Below are positions 26,201 through 32,563 of a DNA stretch of 64,000 nt, piece by piece. Below the pieces are notes generated by a model that did no database searches, had not been told where the DNA came from, and saw nothing but the letters and a program-made list of their open reading frames with translations. A program made the position numbers and the translations under genes. The stretch is from Thiothrix fructosivorans (GTDB lineage Bacteria > Pseudomonadota > Gammaproteobacteria > Thiotrichales > Thiotrichaceae), in the NCBI RefSeq assembly GCF_017349355.1, contig NZ_JAFMPM010000007.1, positions 124,001 to 188,000 of the forward strand. The letters are read 5' to 3'. Position 1 is the first letter of the stretch; each line of letters opens with the position of its first letter.

Positions 26201-26689
26201 TTACCAGAAATGCTCGAAGAAGGGCGCAAAGTGCTGCTGTTCTCGCAATTCACCTCGATGCTGGCGTTGATCGAAGAAGAGCTGGTTGCCAACCAAATCG
26301 TGTACGCCAAACTGACCGGACAAACCAAAAACCGCGATGAAGTGATTGCGCATTTTCAGGAGGGCGACGCGAAAGTCTTCCTGATCAGCCTCAAAGCAGG
26401 CGGCACGGGATTGAATCTGACGGCAGCGGATACCGTGATTCATTACGACCCTTGGTGGAATCCGGCGGCAGAACAACAGGCCACTGACCGCGCTTACCGC
26501 ATCGGTCAGGACAAACCCGTGTTCGTTTACAAACTCATCACCGAAGACACGGTGGAAGAAAAAATCCTCAAGCTGCAAGAGAAAAAGCAGATGTTGGCAA
26601 ATGGCTTGTATTCAGACGCGGGCGCACAAGAAGGCGTGCGCTTCAGCTCAGAAGACTTAATGGATTTATTGAAACCGCTGGAACAGTGA
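23273..26689 (+). CDS. SWIM zinc-finger SNF2/Rad54-family helicase
   Basis: The 1138-aa protein has an N-terminal SWIM zinc finger (CTCPVTMACKHTVAALF, CxCx7CxH, around residue 87). A long middle region of bacterial SNF2_N type follows. The C-terminal SF2 ATPase spans from residue about 660: Q-like LRHYQHEGLNWLQFL, Walker A DDMGLGKT near 697, LDEAQAIKN near 793, LTGTPLENHLGELWS, SQFTSMLALIEEEL, LISLKAGGTGLNLTAAD and WWNPAAEQQATDRAYRIGQ. These bacterial HepA-like proteins translocate on dsDNA; the cellular role is unknown and some relatives occur in defence loci. It overlaps the SGNH gene on the opposite strand by 24 bases. Confidence 0.9.
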   Translation: MHLKTQHLDLLADNHLPQTVLFNVFDSATLARGVDYYETGKVTHFRSEKSGNGNVSITAKVQGEAEEPYVTVVNYNEHSPRWITGVCTCPVTMACKHTVAALFAYLDYARKQKAKEPQRRTVPAFMAATMPTAKALTRSPVDLWLQALSNADKPSTSPFEGDADAVQAHLLYLLDTDVYEHPTLSLYKANVLKKGGYGKPSHVQLEAMLTPYRARNFSYEPHDLMIAQLLATPGMRFLHHWNKGNLSGKTGEQALLEVLKTGRAFWATIDTWQRDIQALHLSNPLDFQFEWQQNDQHEYTVAMIPARTITQHFWLNNKLWYIDTQTLTCGLLQHPDLSAAQVEKFLNAPPIPAAQAESVSERLLEALPDAEVPAPSPNVHQQIEDIHATPAPDLYLRSVTLPETGLNTHIASLRFQYADKLLQPAQHKPSALLKTGKQRYRIHRDLDLEQQALDTLADYGFESANEHYPDLHRLELLMHPDSPALTALRWNDFLDHGVDALRNDGWNVTLDAAFDLHFDVVGNLDAAWEESANGNDWFEISLGFEVEGQRVNLLPILVDMLGQMDSPQALRELLQRQQYMFVPLAGNRWAKLESQRLEGILETLVELYDHQPLNANGNLELSKYQGTALGALLNAPGMKWKGAEELLALTQKLRDFQGIQPVALPDGLNAELRHYQHEGLNWLQFLREYQFNGILADDMGLGKTLQTLAHLLIEKQAGRLTQPAMVVAPTSLMGNWRREAARFTPDLRVQVIHGNDRHKHFDNLGNYDLILTTYPLIVRDEEQYSRHTFHYLILDEAQAIKNAASRTTQVIYTLKARHRVCLTGTPLENHLGELWSMYHFLMPGFLGAHDKFTRLFRTPIEKQGDVGRQQQLRHRVLPFMLRRTKELVASELPPKTEIIRSVALEGKQRDLYETVRLAMDTKLQEEINRKGFARSHIMILDALLKLRQVCCDPRLVKLDKAKKVEQSAKLELLMTLLPEMLEEGRKVLLFSQFTSMLALIEEELVANQIVYAKLTGQTKNRDEVIAHFQEGDAKVFLISLKAGGTGLNLTAADTVIHYDPWWNPAAEQQATDRAYRIGQDKPVFVYKLITEDTVEEKILKLQEKKQMLANGLYSDAGAQEGVRFSSEDLMDLLKPLEQ

Positions 26690-27478
26690 GTCGGTAAACA
26701 ACCGCTTACCCACGTATTTTGCCCCGGCGGGTGTCAAATGCCCGCCGTCATACGAAATCAGTTCCAGCTCATCGGTGAACAAGCGACAGCTTGCACCTTC
26801 GCCGCAAATCAGGCGTTGCTGATCCACAAACACCGCAGTGCCCAAGCTATCACGCAAGAGCTGATTTGTTGCCAACGGCTTAGGGTCAACCTTATTGCTG
26901 AAGGCACGTAATTCATCATCGGATAGCTTCAGGTAATTCCTGATCGACACTTTGCCGAAATCCTTTGCACCCACCACGACCAATGACTGATCAGCGCGTA
27001 GATTCATGCTTTTGATGGTTTCCGGCAACAACTTTGCCGCCCATTCCTGCCAACGTGCCACTAGAATCACGACATCAGCCTCGGCAATCTGCGTTGCCGC
27101 CTGCGTCAGATTATCGGATTCCGCACACAATGCCGCATCTTTAGGTTCGATATTAGCTGCGGCTGCCTCATCCAAAAACATCTGGCAGCGGGTGGGAATG
27201 TAGCGGGTGCTAAGTTGGTAATTCGCCAAATAACCATTTTCCAGCACGCCGTTGAAAAAATCTTGGGCGTGGCTATCACCGATAATTAACGCCTTTTTAC
27301 GATTATCGGCGCTATCAAACGGCTTTTTTTGTACGGCGAGAAAACGCTGGCGAGTGTATTCACCGCTGACTTCAGTATCCGCCGCTTTGAGCAAAGCCTC
27401 GCGGTTTACATCGGCGGCGACGGGCAGCAGAGTGCCGAGACACAATAGCCCAACGCATAACGTTACATACATTTTCAT
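26666..27478 (-). CDS. Exported SGNH-hydrolase-like protein, partner of acyltransferase
   Basis: The 270-aa protein has a signal peptide (YVTLCVGLLCLGTLLPVAA). An SGNH-type core follows, with block I ALIIGDSHAQDF (catalytic Ser) and the C-terminal SYDGGHLTPAGAKYVG supplying the Asp-x-x-His pair. This is the domain usually fused to the C-terminus of OafA/PatB-like acyltransferases, where it completes O-acetyl transfer to a glycan. Here it is a separate gene beginning 4 bases after the acyltransferase stop, with the ribosome site inside that gene's last codons. The glycan target (lipopolysaccharide, peptidoglycan or exopolysaccharide) is not shown by the sequence. Confidence 0.82.
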   Translation of the reverse strand: MKMYVTLCVGLLCLGTLLPVAADVNREALLKAADTEVSGEYTRQRFLAVQKKPFDSADNRKKALIIGDSHAQDFFNGVLENGYLANYQLSTRYIPTRCQMFLDEAAAANIEPKDAALCAESDNLTQAATQIAEADVVILVARWQEWAAKLLPETIKSMNLRADQSLVVVGAKDFGKVSIRNYLKLSDDELRAFSNKVDPKPLATNQLLRDSLGTAVFVDQQRLICGEGASCRLFTDELELISYDGGHLTPAGAKYVGKRLFTDSLFQRFQ

Positions 27479-27482
27479 CTTA

Positions 27483-28610
27483 TTACTCCGCAAAACGACC
27501 CGCAAAGCCATCGGTCAATACCAATGTTGCCCCCACGGCAATAAACAGCAAACTACTGATCACCGCCCCACTAAAAATCTGCGTGCGCGTAAAACGGCTG
27601 CGATCACGGAACGGCTTTTCCACAAAACGCCAGCTAAACCACGCCAATACCAAGGTCATAACGCACAAGCCTGCCATAAAGCTGACACTGGGTTCTTCAA
27701 GCGCTTGCAAGCGTGCAAACACAAATAACGGCTGATGCCACAAATATGCACTGTAAGAAATCAGCCCAACCCAGACCAATGGCGGACTAGCCAGCAACTT
27801 GCCCACCCACGTCGCCGAGGTTGCAAATAGAATCAGTAACACCGCGCCCAGCGTCGGCACCAGCGCATACACGCTGGGAAACGGAATACCGTCATCGAAG
27901 AAAAACACCGCATAGCCCAGCAACACCAGCCCCAACACACTTGCCGCCTGCGCCATCACACCCTGTGCTGCTTGGTTTTTCTGAAGGTAAAACGCTGCCA
28001 ACGCCCCCACCATCAGCTCCCACGCACGGCTCGGAATCAGGTAAAAATTCGCTTCCACTGAATTACGCCACAGCCATTCCGACCAGCCGAGGCTCAACAA
28101 CGCCACCAAAGCAATCAGCCCCGCCAACCAGCGCTTCCCCAAACCCCATGCGGCTAGCATAAACAGCGGGAACACGAGGTAATACTGCTCCTCAACCGCC
28201 AAGCTCCACGTATGCAACAACGGAATCTGTTCTGCGGTCGCCGCAAAATAATCGGTTTGCAACCAGAACAGGATATTGGAGGCAAACACCGCCACGGCTG
28301 ACACGCTTTTACCGAAATCCACCAATTCAGTGGGCAAAAGCAACCACCACGCCAACGGTAAACAAGCAAGTAACACGAAAAATAAGGCGGGAAGAATGCG
28401 CCGCGCACGACGCTCATAGAAACTAGCGACGGTAAAACTCCCCGCCGCCAGTTCCTCCAGAATAATCACTGTAATCAAGTAACCGCTGATGACAAAAAAG
28501 ACATCCACACCCACAAAACCGCCACTCACCACGGAGAATCCGGCATGGAACAAAATAACCGGCAGTACCGCCAAGGCACGTAGCCCATCAATTTCGCGTC
28601 TGTAAATCAC
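27483..28610 (-). CDS. OafA/YrhL-family membrane acyltransferase
   Basis: The 375-aa acyltransferase_3 protein spans the inner membrane about ten times and moves acyl groups outward for glycan modification. It opens with the family block RREIDGLRALAVLPVILFHAG (catalytic His near residue 22), then GGFVGVDVFFVISGYLIT, FYERRARRILPALF, LLHTWSLAVEEQYYLVFPL and the closing RFVEKPFRDR. It ends without the SGNH domain that many relatives carry; that activity is encoded by the next gene. The two genes form a compact unit on the minus strand, 22 bases upstream of the phosphoribulokinase-like gene end. Confidence 0.92.
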   Translation of the reverse strand: MIYRREIDGLRALAVLPVILFHAGFSVVSGGFVGVDVFFVISGYLITVIILEELAAGSFTVASFYERRARRILPALFFVLLACLPLAWWLLLPTELVDFGKSVSAVAVFASNILFWLQTDYFAATAEQIPLLHTWSLAVEEQYYLVFPLFMLAAWGLGKRWLAGLIALVALLSLGWSEWLWRNSVEANFYLIPSRAWELMVGALAAFYLQKNQAAQGVMAQAASVLGLVLLGYAVFFFDDGIPFPSVYALVPTLGAVLLILFATSATWVGKLLASPPLVWVGLISYSAYLWHQPLFVFARLQALEEPSVSFMAGLCVMTLVLAWFSWRFVEKPFRDRSRFTRTQIFSGAVISSLLFIAVGATLVLTDGFAGRFAE

Positions 28611-28632: not shown

Positions 28633-29559
28633 TTATTCTACCAAACCTAGCACGCCCGCGCCCCTGTCTTCTGGCACATCGGTAATCCCACGTAACTGAC
28701 GGCTATGATCAATCAAGCTGTGAATAATCGGCATCAACACCAATTCAATCGCCATCAACATTTTGCTACTGGGTACGACCATCGTATTGCGGCGCGACAT
28801 AAACGACCCCGGAATATCCGCCAGCAATGGGACGAAATTAGGCCAAAACTTGTCAACAAAATGGATAACCAAATAACATTCATCCGCTACTGGCACCGCT
28901 TCTGCACCAAACGGATCAGAGGTATCCACCAACGGAATAAGTTGGAAATTAATATGCGTGCGCATGAATTGCGGGGTAATATGATGCACATAATCGTCTA
29001 AGCGCTTCAACAAGCCTTCTTTTGCATCTTCCAGCGGTACGCCACGGTTGTGGACTTCATGCTGGATTTTAGCCATCCACTCCAGATTCGCATTCGGCGC
29101 AATGCCAATCGACAAGTCGGGGTATTGGGATAAATCAATATCATCTGCCACCGCAGCACCATGCAAGCCGCGATACAGCAATAAATCGCTGTCAGCGTCC
29201 ATGCGTTCCCACGGCGTAAACGTGCCAACTTCTTGCCCAAATTTGCGGGCTTGCGTGGCAGTATGCAGGTAGTGCCGATACAAGCCACCGCCCGTTGCGG
29301 CGTATTCAAAAAACAGGCTTTCCAACTTTTCCAAATGATTGCCTTCCGGGCCAAAATGCCCCAAGGTTTTGCCTTGTGCCTTGGCTTCGCGCACGGCTTC
29401 GCGCATGGTGGTGCGGTCATAACGGCGGAAAGCACTGCCGTCAATGTAGGACGCTTTGACGCGCTCACGGTAAAAAATCCGCTCTAATGCCGTGATGACC
29501 GACACTGAACCTGACTCCATCGCTCCGGTAATGGCGACAATAGGATGTTCTGCTGACAT
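28633..29559 (-). CDS. Phosphoribulokinase homologue with altered catalytic residues
   Basis: The 308-aa protein aligns end to end with proteobacterial/PrkB-type phosphoribulokinase (HFGPEGNHLEKLESLFFEY, GTFTPW, LHG, NLEWMAKI, TPQFMRTHINFQ, VDTSDPFGAEAVP, GSFMSRRNTMVVP). Active-site positions are changed. The ATP loop reads GAMESGSVS instead of the family GSSGAGTTT. The catalytic Asp42 position is Ser (DGSAFRRYDR), His45 is Arg, the Glu131 equivalent is Arg130 (LYRGLHG), and Arg168-Asp169 are His-Glu. Arg49, Lys164 and Arg172 are kept. An AGGAGGA site fixes the start at 29559. No Rubisco gene is nearby. It is probably a pseudoenzyme or a kinase with another substrate, not the Calvin-cycle enzyme. 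Confidence 0.88.
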   Translation of the reverse strand: MSAEHPIVAITGAMESGSVSVITALERIFYRERVKASYIDGSAFRRYDRTTMREAVREAKAQGKTLGHFGPEGNHLEKLESLFFEYAATGGGLYRHYLHTATQARKFGQEVGTFTPWERMDADSDLLLYRGLHGAAVADDIDLSQYPDLSIGIAPNANLEWMAKIQHEVHNRGVPLEDAKEGLLKRLDDYVHHITPQFMRTHINFQLIPLVDTSDPFGAEAVPVADECYLVIHFVDKFWPNFVPLLADIPGSFMSRRNTMVVPSSKMLMAIELVLMPIIHSLIDHSRQLRGITDVPEDRGAGVLGLVE

Positions 29560-29628
29560 GAATCCTCCTCCTAAAAAACGTGGTGAAGTGGAGCATACCA
29601 CCAGCCTATTCTGTTACGATACCCACCC

Positions 29629-30983: not shown

Positions 30984-31979
30984 ATGACTGAACATTTCAT
31001 CCAATATATCGACATTGAGCGATACAAGTGCTTTAGTGATTTTTCAGCGCATGGCTTCCAACGCGTCAACCTCATTGCCGGAAAAAACAACGTCGGTAAA
31101 ACCGCACTGATGGAAGCGATATTCATCAATGTATGCAGTTCCACTATTAGTGATCTATTTGACTCATTACTTTTCTTTTACAAACAGCGTAAAGCAACTG
31201 ATTACGCTTACAAAACACTCAATAAAAAAGATGCTACTGATACCATTCTAAAGCAAGCGAGTTCATTAAAAAGTAAAACAAATATTCAAGCCATTGAGTT
31301 TAAATTAAATGACTCTGAAATTTCAAGAAAATATGAAATAAATATAAATAACTCAAATAACAGCATTGCAGAAGAAAATATGGATATTTTCTCCATCGCA
31401 AACAAAGCAATAATCAAAGACGTTTGCTGGATTGGAAGCTCTCGTGATTCACAAGAAGGAATAATAGATTCATTCACTAGCATTCAGAAAAAAGACCGTG
31501 AAGATGATTTAAACCACCTCATCAACAGTTTCGATAATGAAATTGAAAAAATAAAAGTTATTGGCAATTCTATTCAATGTCGGGTTACTGCATCTGATGG
31601 CAGTTTTTCTTATCGTGGTATTGGTGAGTACGGTGATGGATTACGTCTTTATGTTTCAGTCATTGCTGATATGTTTACGGCGGAAAATCATTACATATTT
31701 ATTGACGAAATCGACAATGGTGTTCATTACACATTACTGGATAAGCTGTGGGACATTATTCTGAAATTATCTAAAGAATTGAATGTGCAGGTATTTGCAA
31801 CCACCCACTCGCGTGAGTGCATTGAATCCTACTGCCGTATAGTCGAAAAGCACAAAGAACGGAATATTAGTTTTATTACGTTAGTTAAAAACAAAGAAAA
31901 GCAAATTAAAGCCATTATCAGGGATTACGATACATTTACTGATAGCATCCATGATTCTCGTGAGGTGCGCGGATGGTAA
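30984..31979 (+). CDS. ABC-type ATPase of a split OLD/TOPRIM module (copy 2)
   Basis: The 331-aa product has the same design as the gene at 4251: YKCFSDFSAHGF, Walker A GKNNVGKT at residues 33-40, a signature-like RGIGEYGDGLRLY, Walker B YIFIDEIDNGVHYT and H-loop FATTHSREC. The C-terminal motor half is similar between the copies (KELNVQVFATTHS against KELNIQVFATTHS), while the central segment is dissimilar and strongly AT-rich (about 31130-31560). It overlaps the following TOPRIM gene by 7 bases. The two-gene unit sits between the damaged AAA/nuclease gene and the AlbA_2/HATPase-type gene. A defence role is inferred, not shown. Confidence 0.84.
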   Translation: MTEHFIQYIDIERYKCFSDFSAHGFQRVNLIAGKNNVGKTALMEAIFINVCSSTISDLFDSLLFFYKQRKATDYAYKTLNKKDATDTILKQASSLKSKTNIQAIEFKLNDSEISRKYEININNSNNSIAEENMDIFSIANKAIIKDVCWIGSSRDSQEGIIDSFTSIQKKDREDDLNHLINSFDNEIEKIKVIGNSIQCRVTASDGSFSYRGIGEYGDGLRLYVSVIADMFTAENHYIFIDEIDNGVHYTLLDKLWDIILKLSKELNVQVFATTHSRECIESYCRIVEKHKERNISFITLVKNKEKQIKAIIRDYDTFTDSIHDSREVRGW

Positions 31980-32563
31980 AGGTAGCTATCTTACACGAAG
32001 GTCATGCAGATAAATCATTAGATAACTGGTTGTTAAAAGAACTAACAGCAGAATTGGCAAAAGAAAATCCGGTGGTTTTTAATTGGAATCGTGTGCAATG
32101 TTACGGAATGCAAGGAAAAAGTACATTTTTTGATATTACCAATGTCAAATATAGCGATCTTTTACCTCAAATTATAGAAGATCAAATCACAAAAGTGTTA
32201 TTCGTCATTGATGCTGACTGCCACGAAAATGATGCCGTTTATGGTGGTTATCATAATACCTTAAATCAATGGCAAACATTGGTGATGAATCAGCTAAATA
32301 TTGCAGAGATTAGCGATATTTTCATTAGCTGTGACCCAATAACACAAACCGGTTACGTTGAATCGCTACTGTTATCAACCTTGGATGATGATAAAAAAAC
32401 ATGTATTGAAACCTTTCTGGCTTGTTCAGATTTTCAACAAAAAGACAATGCCAAAGCTATTTTGCGTCAAATTTACAAAACTGCTTACCCCAAAGCCCCC
32501 TACGATCTGCAACACGCGCATTTCGATGAACTCAAGCAAAAACTAAGAGCACTGTTCAGTTAA
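31973..32563 (+). CDS. TOPRIM-like (DUF3226-type) protein paired with ATPase (copy 2)
   Basis: The 196-aa protein shows a TOPRIM-like pattern: VAILHEGHADKSL with Glu9, then VLFVIDADCHEND with Asp80 and Asp82, and a distal acidic patch around GYVESLLLSTLDDD. It is shorter than and diverged from copy 1 (233 aa), but gene order, overlap with the ATPase gene and motif spacing correspond. The family assignment is by motif and context, and overall similarity to copy 1 is low. Confidence 0.72.
   Translation: MVKVAILHEGHADKSLDNWLLKELTAELAKENPVVFNWNRVQCYGMQGKSTFFDITNVKYSDLLPQIIEDQITKVLFVIDADCHENDAVYGGYHNTLNQWQTLVMNQLNIAEISDIFISCDPITQTGYVESLLLSTLDDDKKTCIETFLACSDFQQKDNAKAILRQIYKTAYPKAPYDLQHAHFDELKQKLRALFS

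Follow-up and report, generated by a model that had tools for sequence, protein, structure and literature searches.

A conserved phosphoribulokinase paralogue of Thiothrix and related gammaproteobacteria, probably a pseudoenzyme, retains ribulose-5-phosphate residues

CP12 is a small protein regulator that acts on PRK/GAPDH and is not a phosphoribulokinase (PRK) paralogue. HisZ, the partner of HisG, is a regulatory pseudoenzyme paralogue. The protein described here may resemble CP12 in being another protein regulator, and HisZ in being an inactive paralogue kept beside an active enzyme; co-assembly of the PRK pair is a proposal only.

Two phylogenetically different prk copies have been reported in Thiothrix, the second of which falls below the 70% core-gene identity threshold relative to the first (PMC9455678); the copies are also described as phylogenetically distant (PMC7767063). 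Both prk1 and prk2 are found in Thiothrix and Thiolinea, and only prk1 in Thiofilum, which is devoid of RuBisCO (PMC10532065). A second Thiothrix prk is therefore already in print, and in the parts of these three papers available to us it is treated as a phosphoribulokinase, with no mention of active-site loss. The part of PMC8570282 available to us does not mention prk. Literature searches of open-licence papers returned no title or abstract start describing an inactive bacterial PRK paralogue. As judged from identity and distribution, the published prk2 is very probably the gene analysed below.

The paralogous gene and its protein

The window is a 64,000-nucleotide stretch of the Thiothrix fructosivorans genome (contig NZ_JAFMPM010000007.1, positions 124,001 to 188,000). 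Features of the gene are listed in Table 1. The open reading frame starts with ATG and has no internal stop codons. The Shine-Dalgarno-like sequence upstream of the ATG is identical in L004 and L005 and similar in L006 and L007. A reading made from the letters of the window alone (hereafter, the sequence-only reading) had described a full-length PRK homologue with multiple active-site replacements, encoded by an open frame with a strong ribosome site. Translation, and alignment to the PRK of R. sphaeroides (Rs; PDB 1a7j), bear out this description.

Table 1 Features of the PRK-paralogue gene. Coordinates refer to the window; residues are numbered on the window protein, with Rs equivalents in brackets.
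Feature	Coordinates	Strand	Remarks
PRK-paralogue gene	28633..29559	minus	308 aa plus stop; read here as a pseudoenzyme
Shine-Dalgarno-like AGGAGGAGG	29564..29572	minus	4 bases 5' of ATG
Former P-loop, residues 12-19 GAMESGSV (Rs GSSGAGTS)	29503..29526	minus	Position 15 is acidic
Residues 42-45: S42 in place of the catalytic base D42, R45 in place of H45	29425..29436	minus	From alignment
R49, Ru5P-phosphate residue	29413..29415	minus	Retained; role from PMC5241800, available part
Y97 and H99 (Rs Y98, H100), Ru5P-phosphate residues	29263..29271	minus	Retained; role from PMC5241800, available part
R130 (Rs E131), clade-marking replacement	29170..29172	minus	From alignment; single change on 63-row tree
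H167-E168 (Rs R168-D169)	29056..29061	minus	From alignment; replaced in inner Thiothrix clade only
Conserved C-terminal tail, residues 286-308 (SRQLRGITDVPEDRGAGVLGLVE)	28636..28704	minus	Absent as such from 66/66 true PRKs

The window protein matches the Pfam PRK profile PF00485 with 132.4 bits (curated cut-off, 22). With the NCBIfam PRK equivalog NF011997 it scores 356.3 bits, below the cut-off of 362. Since six of the seven other paralogues tried pass, this cut-off does not divide the paralogue clade from PRK.

By sequence, the closest solved structure is 1a7j (E 1.9e-70; query residues 1-286 of 308 against chain residues 1-287). Compared with the best of five fold models of the window protein (pLDDT 86, pTM 0.86; the remaining four are poor, with pLDDT 52-71), 1a7j again ranks first among solved structures, with TM 0.84/0.92, Z 32.4 and an rmsd of 2.0 across 275 residues. 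The two proteins have in common the fold, homology over residues 1-286 and the residues that contact the phosphate of ribulose-5-phosphate (Ru5P). In contrast, the window protein has replaced Glu131 and the catalytic base, carries an altered P-loop and has an extra tail.

This tail, which was missed by the sequence-only reading, is a shared character. Beyond the Pro278 anchor, the 34 paralogues compared extend for 28-36 residues and 65 of the 66 true PRKs for 9-15; the remaining one, L068, has 26 residues in a tail that reads differently. Within the tail, R287 and G302 are found in all 34 paralogues, G305 in 33 and R290 in 32, and the region may represent an interaction motif; a targeting peptide for an encapsulin or a microcompartment was considered as well.

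A canonical prk is present in the same genome (contig 6, 143176-144087), as the sequence-only reading had thought worth looking for, so the objection that it might be absent does not apply. Its product reads GSSGAGTT, GDSFH and YEGLHG at the altered sites, and is 45% identical to the window paralogue.

Active-site residues lost and retained

Residues of 34 complete paralogues were compared with those of 66 true PRKs, using the Rs numbering. Duplicate loci within one genome were counted once. The partial paralogue L071 (Asp42, Arg131) is left out of the 34 but included in the trees, and neither set contains L069, L070, L119, L121, L151-L153 or L181-L189.

Glu131, which we take to be a Mg ligand of PRK, is present in all 66 true PRKs and is replaced by Arg in all 34 paralogues. 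Position 42 is Asp in every true PRK and Ser (30), Asn (3) or Gly (1) in the paralogues. The window protein lacks both residues. Its P-loop keeps G12 and G17 but not G15 and T18, and does not fit the canonical GSSGAGT[ST] pattern. Other catalytic positions vary among the 34 paralogues: Gly15 (G in 18, E in 11, D in 5), Thr18 (S in 30, T in 3, N in 1), His45 (H in 22, R in 11, L in 1), Lys165 (K in 28, R in 6), Arg168 (R in 23, H in 11) and Asp169 (D in 24, E in 10). Among positions invariant in true PRKs, only two are fixed differently in the paralogues, i.e., E131R and a Val-to-Pro change at 148. At 44 others, several of which lie between 176 and 209, in a helix and a strand, the true-PRK residue is kept. 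The replacements are not an artefact, since the motifs GA[ML]ESGS, GSAFRR and YRGLHG are common to 11 of the 16 genomes of the genus.

We take R31, R187, R221, R234 and R257 to be the effector-site arginines of PRK. R31, R187 and R257 are kept in 33, 33 and 32 of the 34 paralogues, respectively, and R221 and R234 are mostly lost. Because the set is kept only in part, the mechanism proposed below is not built on NADH.

Residues matching Arg49, Tyr98 and His100 bind the phosphate of Ru5P, His45 and Lys165 contact Ru5P and Arg168 contacts ATP, according to the part of PMC5241800 available to us. Arg49, Tyr98 and His100 are retained in the window protein and in 34/34 paralogues, with no changes on the 63-row tree. 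The window protein also keeps K164 (Rs K165) and R172 (Rs R173). Consequently, although all replacements listed in the sequence-only reading are right, its statement that nearly every catalytic residue is replaced goes too far. Plant-type PRK features a catalytic Asp-His dyad (PMC9978339, available part); we take the Asp as Asp42 and the His as His100, and the equivalent of the latter is present in the window protein. In terms of sequence, what the paralogue clade has kept of the active site is the sugar-phosphate end; the base is lost, together with the nucleotide/metal end (Mg binding by Glu131 being presumed).

The canonical PRKs examined from the family have HGVT, HSVT, HSLS or similar after Asp42-Ser-Phe, as seen in L001:1483-2397. 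Most other PRKs compared have HRYD at this site, and most paralogues keep HRY.

Phylogeny, distribution and selective constraint

In a 63-row tree, 25 paralogues form one clade (support 100/100), and the PRKs of their hosts form a separate one (100/99). A 79-row tree agrees, with 26 paralogues at 100/99 and 23 host-type PRKs at 100/99. Derivation of the paralogue from the present PRK of its host is unsupported by either tree, and the separate, well-supported clades indicate that it did not arise by recent duplication of the resident PRK.

The E131R replacement is a single change in the 63-row tree. The acidic residue at position 15 occurs in two groups, as Glu in the inner Thiothrix clade and as Asp in g8 (Thiolinea and kin), and needs three changes on the same tree. 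Losses other than those of Glu131 and Asp42 are lineage-specific, and the seemingly total loss in the window lineage is thus the outcome of stepwise change. The partial paralogue L071 (L071:5112-5618) combines Arg131 with an intact Asp42 and is placed beside an Asn42 member; it is either an early-branching intermediate or a reversion.

Four proteins with Gln at position 131 (L152, L153, L181 and L182) are the probable sister group of the paralogue clade (98/96 in the 79-row tree). Both stems are long, and the position may therefore be an artefact. Like the window clade, they have Asp42 replaced, by Ser or Gly, and keep Arg49, Tyr98 and His100; in contrast, they have an intact-looking GSSGSGS loop and no such tail. 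Their genomes contain three PRK-like matches each. If the sister position is true, the loss of Asp42 and Glu131 predates the Arg-type clade. The two groups would represent different stages of catalytic loss, and may be useful to study the passage from kinase to pseudoenzyme.

The same or related genomes encode PRK-like proteins with Asp42, Glu131 and a lysine-rich C-terminal tail (L183-L187, in G508, G540, G451, G578 and G561). Together with L188 and L189, these form a clade of their own. In L069:6883-7815 and L070:8001-8948, Asp42 is replaced by Asn or Ser and His45 by Arg, Glu131 is kept and an insertion occurs near position 140. The two pieces found in the L070 genome (G449) are its sole A2 profile matches.

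The paralogue is present in 24 of 63 family genomes, always as an open frame: all 16 genomes of the genus, 2/12 of g2, 6/9 of g8 and 0/26 of g3-g7. A true-PRK-level match accompanies it in 24/24 family genomes; residues were read in 21 of these, and all have Glu131. Scanning genome contigs yielded 28 paralogue-like loci, 25 of which are members (L068-L070 are not). Members within the family come from Thiothrix, Thiolinea and Cocleimonas records, T. caldifontis DSM 21228 and T. lacustris DSM 21227 being among the carriers. Beyond the family, they were identified in the Solemya velum gill symbiont, in a MAG labelled Chromatiales and in nine other gammaproteobacterial MAGs. Of the 11 genomes that have a member but do not belong to the family set, ten have a true-PRK-level match, the exception being the MAG G432. 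In L151, Ser42, Arg131 and the tail are present. In a sample of 369 genomes drawn evenly from the class, only the window genome (G000) and G045 reach paralogue-level scores, and the remaining 28 of the 30 fetched loci have Glu131.

In the group around the Solemya symbiont, 7/146 genomes carry the paralogue, and in 129/146 the host-PRK profile finds a match with an E-value no higher than 1e-120. Thirty of these PRK genomes were fetched: seven have the paralogue, and a quick tree places the PRKs of all 23 others in the host-PRK clade. Strict dependence of host-type PRK on the paralogue is thus rejected. As host-type PRK occurs without the paralogue in 23/23 sampled genomes, the latter is not a required PRK subunit.

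RuBisCO is found in 22/24 paralogue genomes versus 24/39 others (Fisher p 0.0096, kinship ignored; one of the 24, G023, is counted on a fragment scoring under the family cut-off). The two paralogue genomes without a RuBisCO match are G046 (96% complete) and G047 (81%). G038, which has a true PRK but neither the paralogue nor RuBisCO, is consistent with the Thiofilum pattern reported in the available part of PMC10532065. Five family genomes (G006, G008, G013, G019 and G037) have RuBisCO and no PRK-like match, and nine (G028, G029 and G038 among them) have a PRK-like match and no RuBisCO; some of these are incomplete MAGs.

Sixteen genomes give 120 pairs, of which the 22 closest were used to estimate omega (Nei-Gojobori, NG86). 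Values range from 0.039 to 0.198 (median about 0.08) for the paralogue and from 0 to 0.085 (median about 0.046) for the true PRKs that these genomes encode, many synonymous distances being above 1. In the three closest pairs (paralogue dS < 0.2), omega is 0.040-0.056. Together with the 24 open family copies, the paralogue values support the view of the sequence-only reading that the gene is not undergoing simple decay.

In the 11 inner-clade genes, residues 7-50 show a mean pN of 0.040 versus 0.087-0.144 elsewhere. Since the pattern recurs in true PRKs (0.027 versus 0.032-0.077), the altered P-loop is constrained about as before, and not uniquely. When the 34 paralogues are taken together, similarity is slightly higher in region 127-170 than in residues 7-50 (0.70 versus 0.67).

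Proposed role, alternatives and genomic neighbourhood

The gene combines loss of catalytic residues with purifying selection, as a pseudoenzyme should. The pseudoenzyme proposed by the sequence-only reading is hence well supported by sequence: the conserved paralogue is real, and its product probably lacks activity. The reading that we prefer, to which we give an even chance as a whole, is that of a conserved PRK pseudoenzyme that would bind pentose phosphates and tune the Calvin cycle, perhaps together with true PRK. As the sequences show, an old duplicate swapped Glu131 for Arg and lost the base Asp42, the fold and the Ru5P-phosphate residues having stayed. The protein would no longer transfer phosphate, but could still bind Ru5P or a similar pentose phosphate. 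Protein contacts would then read out ligand binding and adjust Calvin-cycle flux, most likely in a complex formed with the cell's own canonical PRK via the shared dimer surface, the tail or both. Further remodelling of the nucleotide site (Glu15, Arg45, His-Glu for Arg168-Asp169) then took place in the inner Thiothrix clade, in a region that is constrained. R. sphaeroides PRK is activated by NADH, and ribulose-1,5-bisphosphate (RuBP) is an effector of CbbR (PMC4806589, available part), which makes a regulator of PRK, or one responding to RuBP, plausible. Points against the proposal are the paralogue genomes lacking a match to RuBisCO (G046, G047) or to true PRK (G432), the want of a conserved gene neighbour, Arg at Lys165 in 6/34 paralogues, Asp42 in the partial L071 and the loss of most R221 and R234.

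A regulatory partner of true PRK had been suggested by the sequence-only reading. This part is plausible, given the canonical PRK in the genome and the true-PRK-level match in every paralogue genome of the family, although no gene linkage was seen by neighbour clustering. In contrast, the CP12-like system suggested as an alternative is unsupported, as searches of the window genome for CP12 (PF02672) gave no matches and the S. elongatus control did.

In a more specific and doubtful form of this proposal, the clade would be a dedicated RuBP or Ru5P receptor, in which Arg131, now that Asp42 is lost, makes the former phosphoryl-transfer site an anion site that could take the C1 phosphate of the product RuBP, and Arg49, Tyr98 and His100 hold the C5 phosphate, with the tail reporting the bound state. 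If so, a kinase has turned into a metabolite sensor that informs PRK, or some other target, about intermediates of the Calvin cycle. Literature searches found no report of a Calvin-cycle regulator of this PRK-derived sensor kind.

Among other explanations, the one that fares best, though on the whole unlikely, is a purely structural partner that co-assembles with true PRK and sets its stability or effector response, the pocket being incidental. The retention of R31, R187, R257 and the 44 true-PRK-invariant positions, several at 176-209, is in line with it. The dimer contact of bacterial PRK consists of strands 5, 6 and 9 and helix 6 (PMC5241800, available part), elements that may correspond to the conserved stretch in the model. 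However, the absence of any tree change at Arg49, Tyr98 and His100 is hard to explain with an unused pocket.

These residues and the purifying selection are also compatible with an enzyme performing a different, ATP-independent reaction on a pentose phosphate. We regard this as improbable, because only E131R and the Val-to-Pro change are fixed anew, and a non-systematic look revealed no new set of catalytic-type residues. A kinase with new chemistry, the other option of the sequence-only reading, likewise looks unlikely: Glu131 is gone throughout, as is Asp42 in all but the partial L071, and the acidic P-loop residue in two groups argues further against it.

The prk2 annotation implies that the protein is a functional PRK isoform whose kinetics differ. 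The second prk reported in the available parts of PMC9455678, PMC7767063 and PMC10532065 and the acceptance by the NCBI equivalog of 6/7 other paralogues, though not of the window protein, speak for this option. It is nonetheless quite improbable, as the base and Glu131 are replaced and the window clade has also changed the P-loop, H45, R168 and D169. Finally, a decaying relic, to which the variable catalytic positions (resembling relaxed sites) and an omega on average somewhat above that of true PRK could be ascribed, is hardly credible in view of the 24 family copies without internal stops and the omega range of 0.039-0.198. If, as the pseudoenzyme reading holds, the clade is inactive, the PRK annotations in print and by the equivalog model are wrong; if its members bind pentose phosphates, they represent a new type of Calvin-cycle control.

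Clustering of ORFs of at least 90 aa from the flanking regions (up to 8 kb) of 26 paralogue loci (25 on named contigs and the window) revealed no conserved gene neighbour. In this analysis, the L063 copy did not join the cluster of its family, probably because an overlapping ORF took its place. Clusters spanning distant lineages include a TRAP transporter set (five loci), an ABC ATPase (four) and a nucleotidyltransferase-like protein (five). The TRAP set and the ABC ATPase were considered as operon partners and rejected: they are only 24-33% identical between lineages, and are therefore superfamily matches rather than kept neighbours.

Two other loci lie close to the paralogue in the window. 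At 26666-28610, Acyltransferase-3 and SGNH are encoded by two overlapping ORFs, as in L044, L045 and L048; these domains are often fused, according to the Pfam SGNH entry. At 30984-32563, an AAA ATPase gene, whose best PADLOC match is AbiLi (E 2.8e-51) and which also matches PDC-M38A and AriA, is paired with a small partner weakly matching PDC-M38B (E 0.00014). The two genes are possibly an anti-phage defence system.
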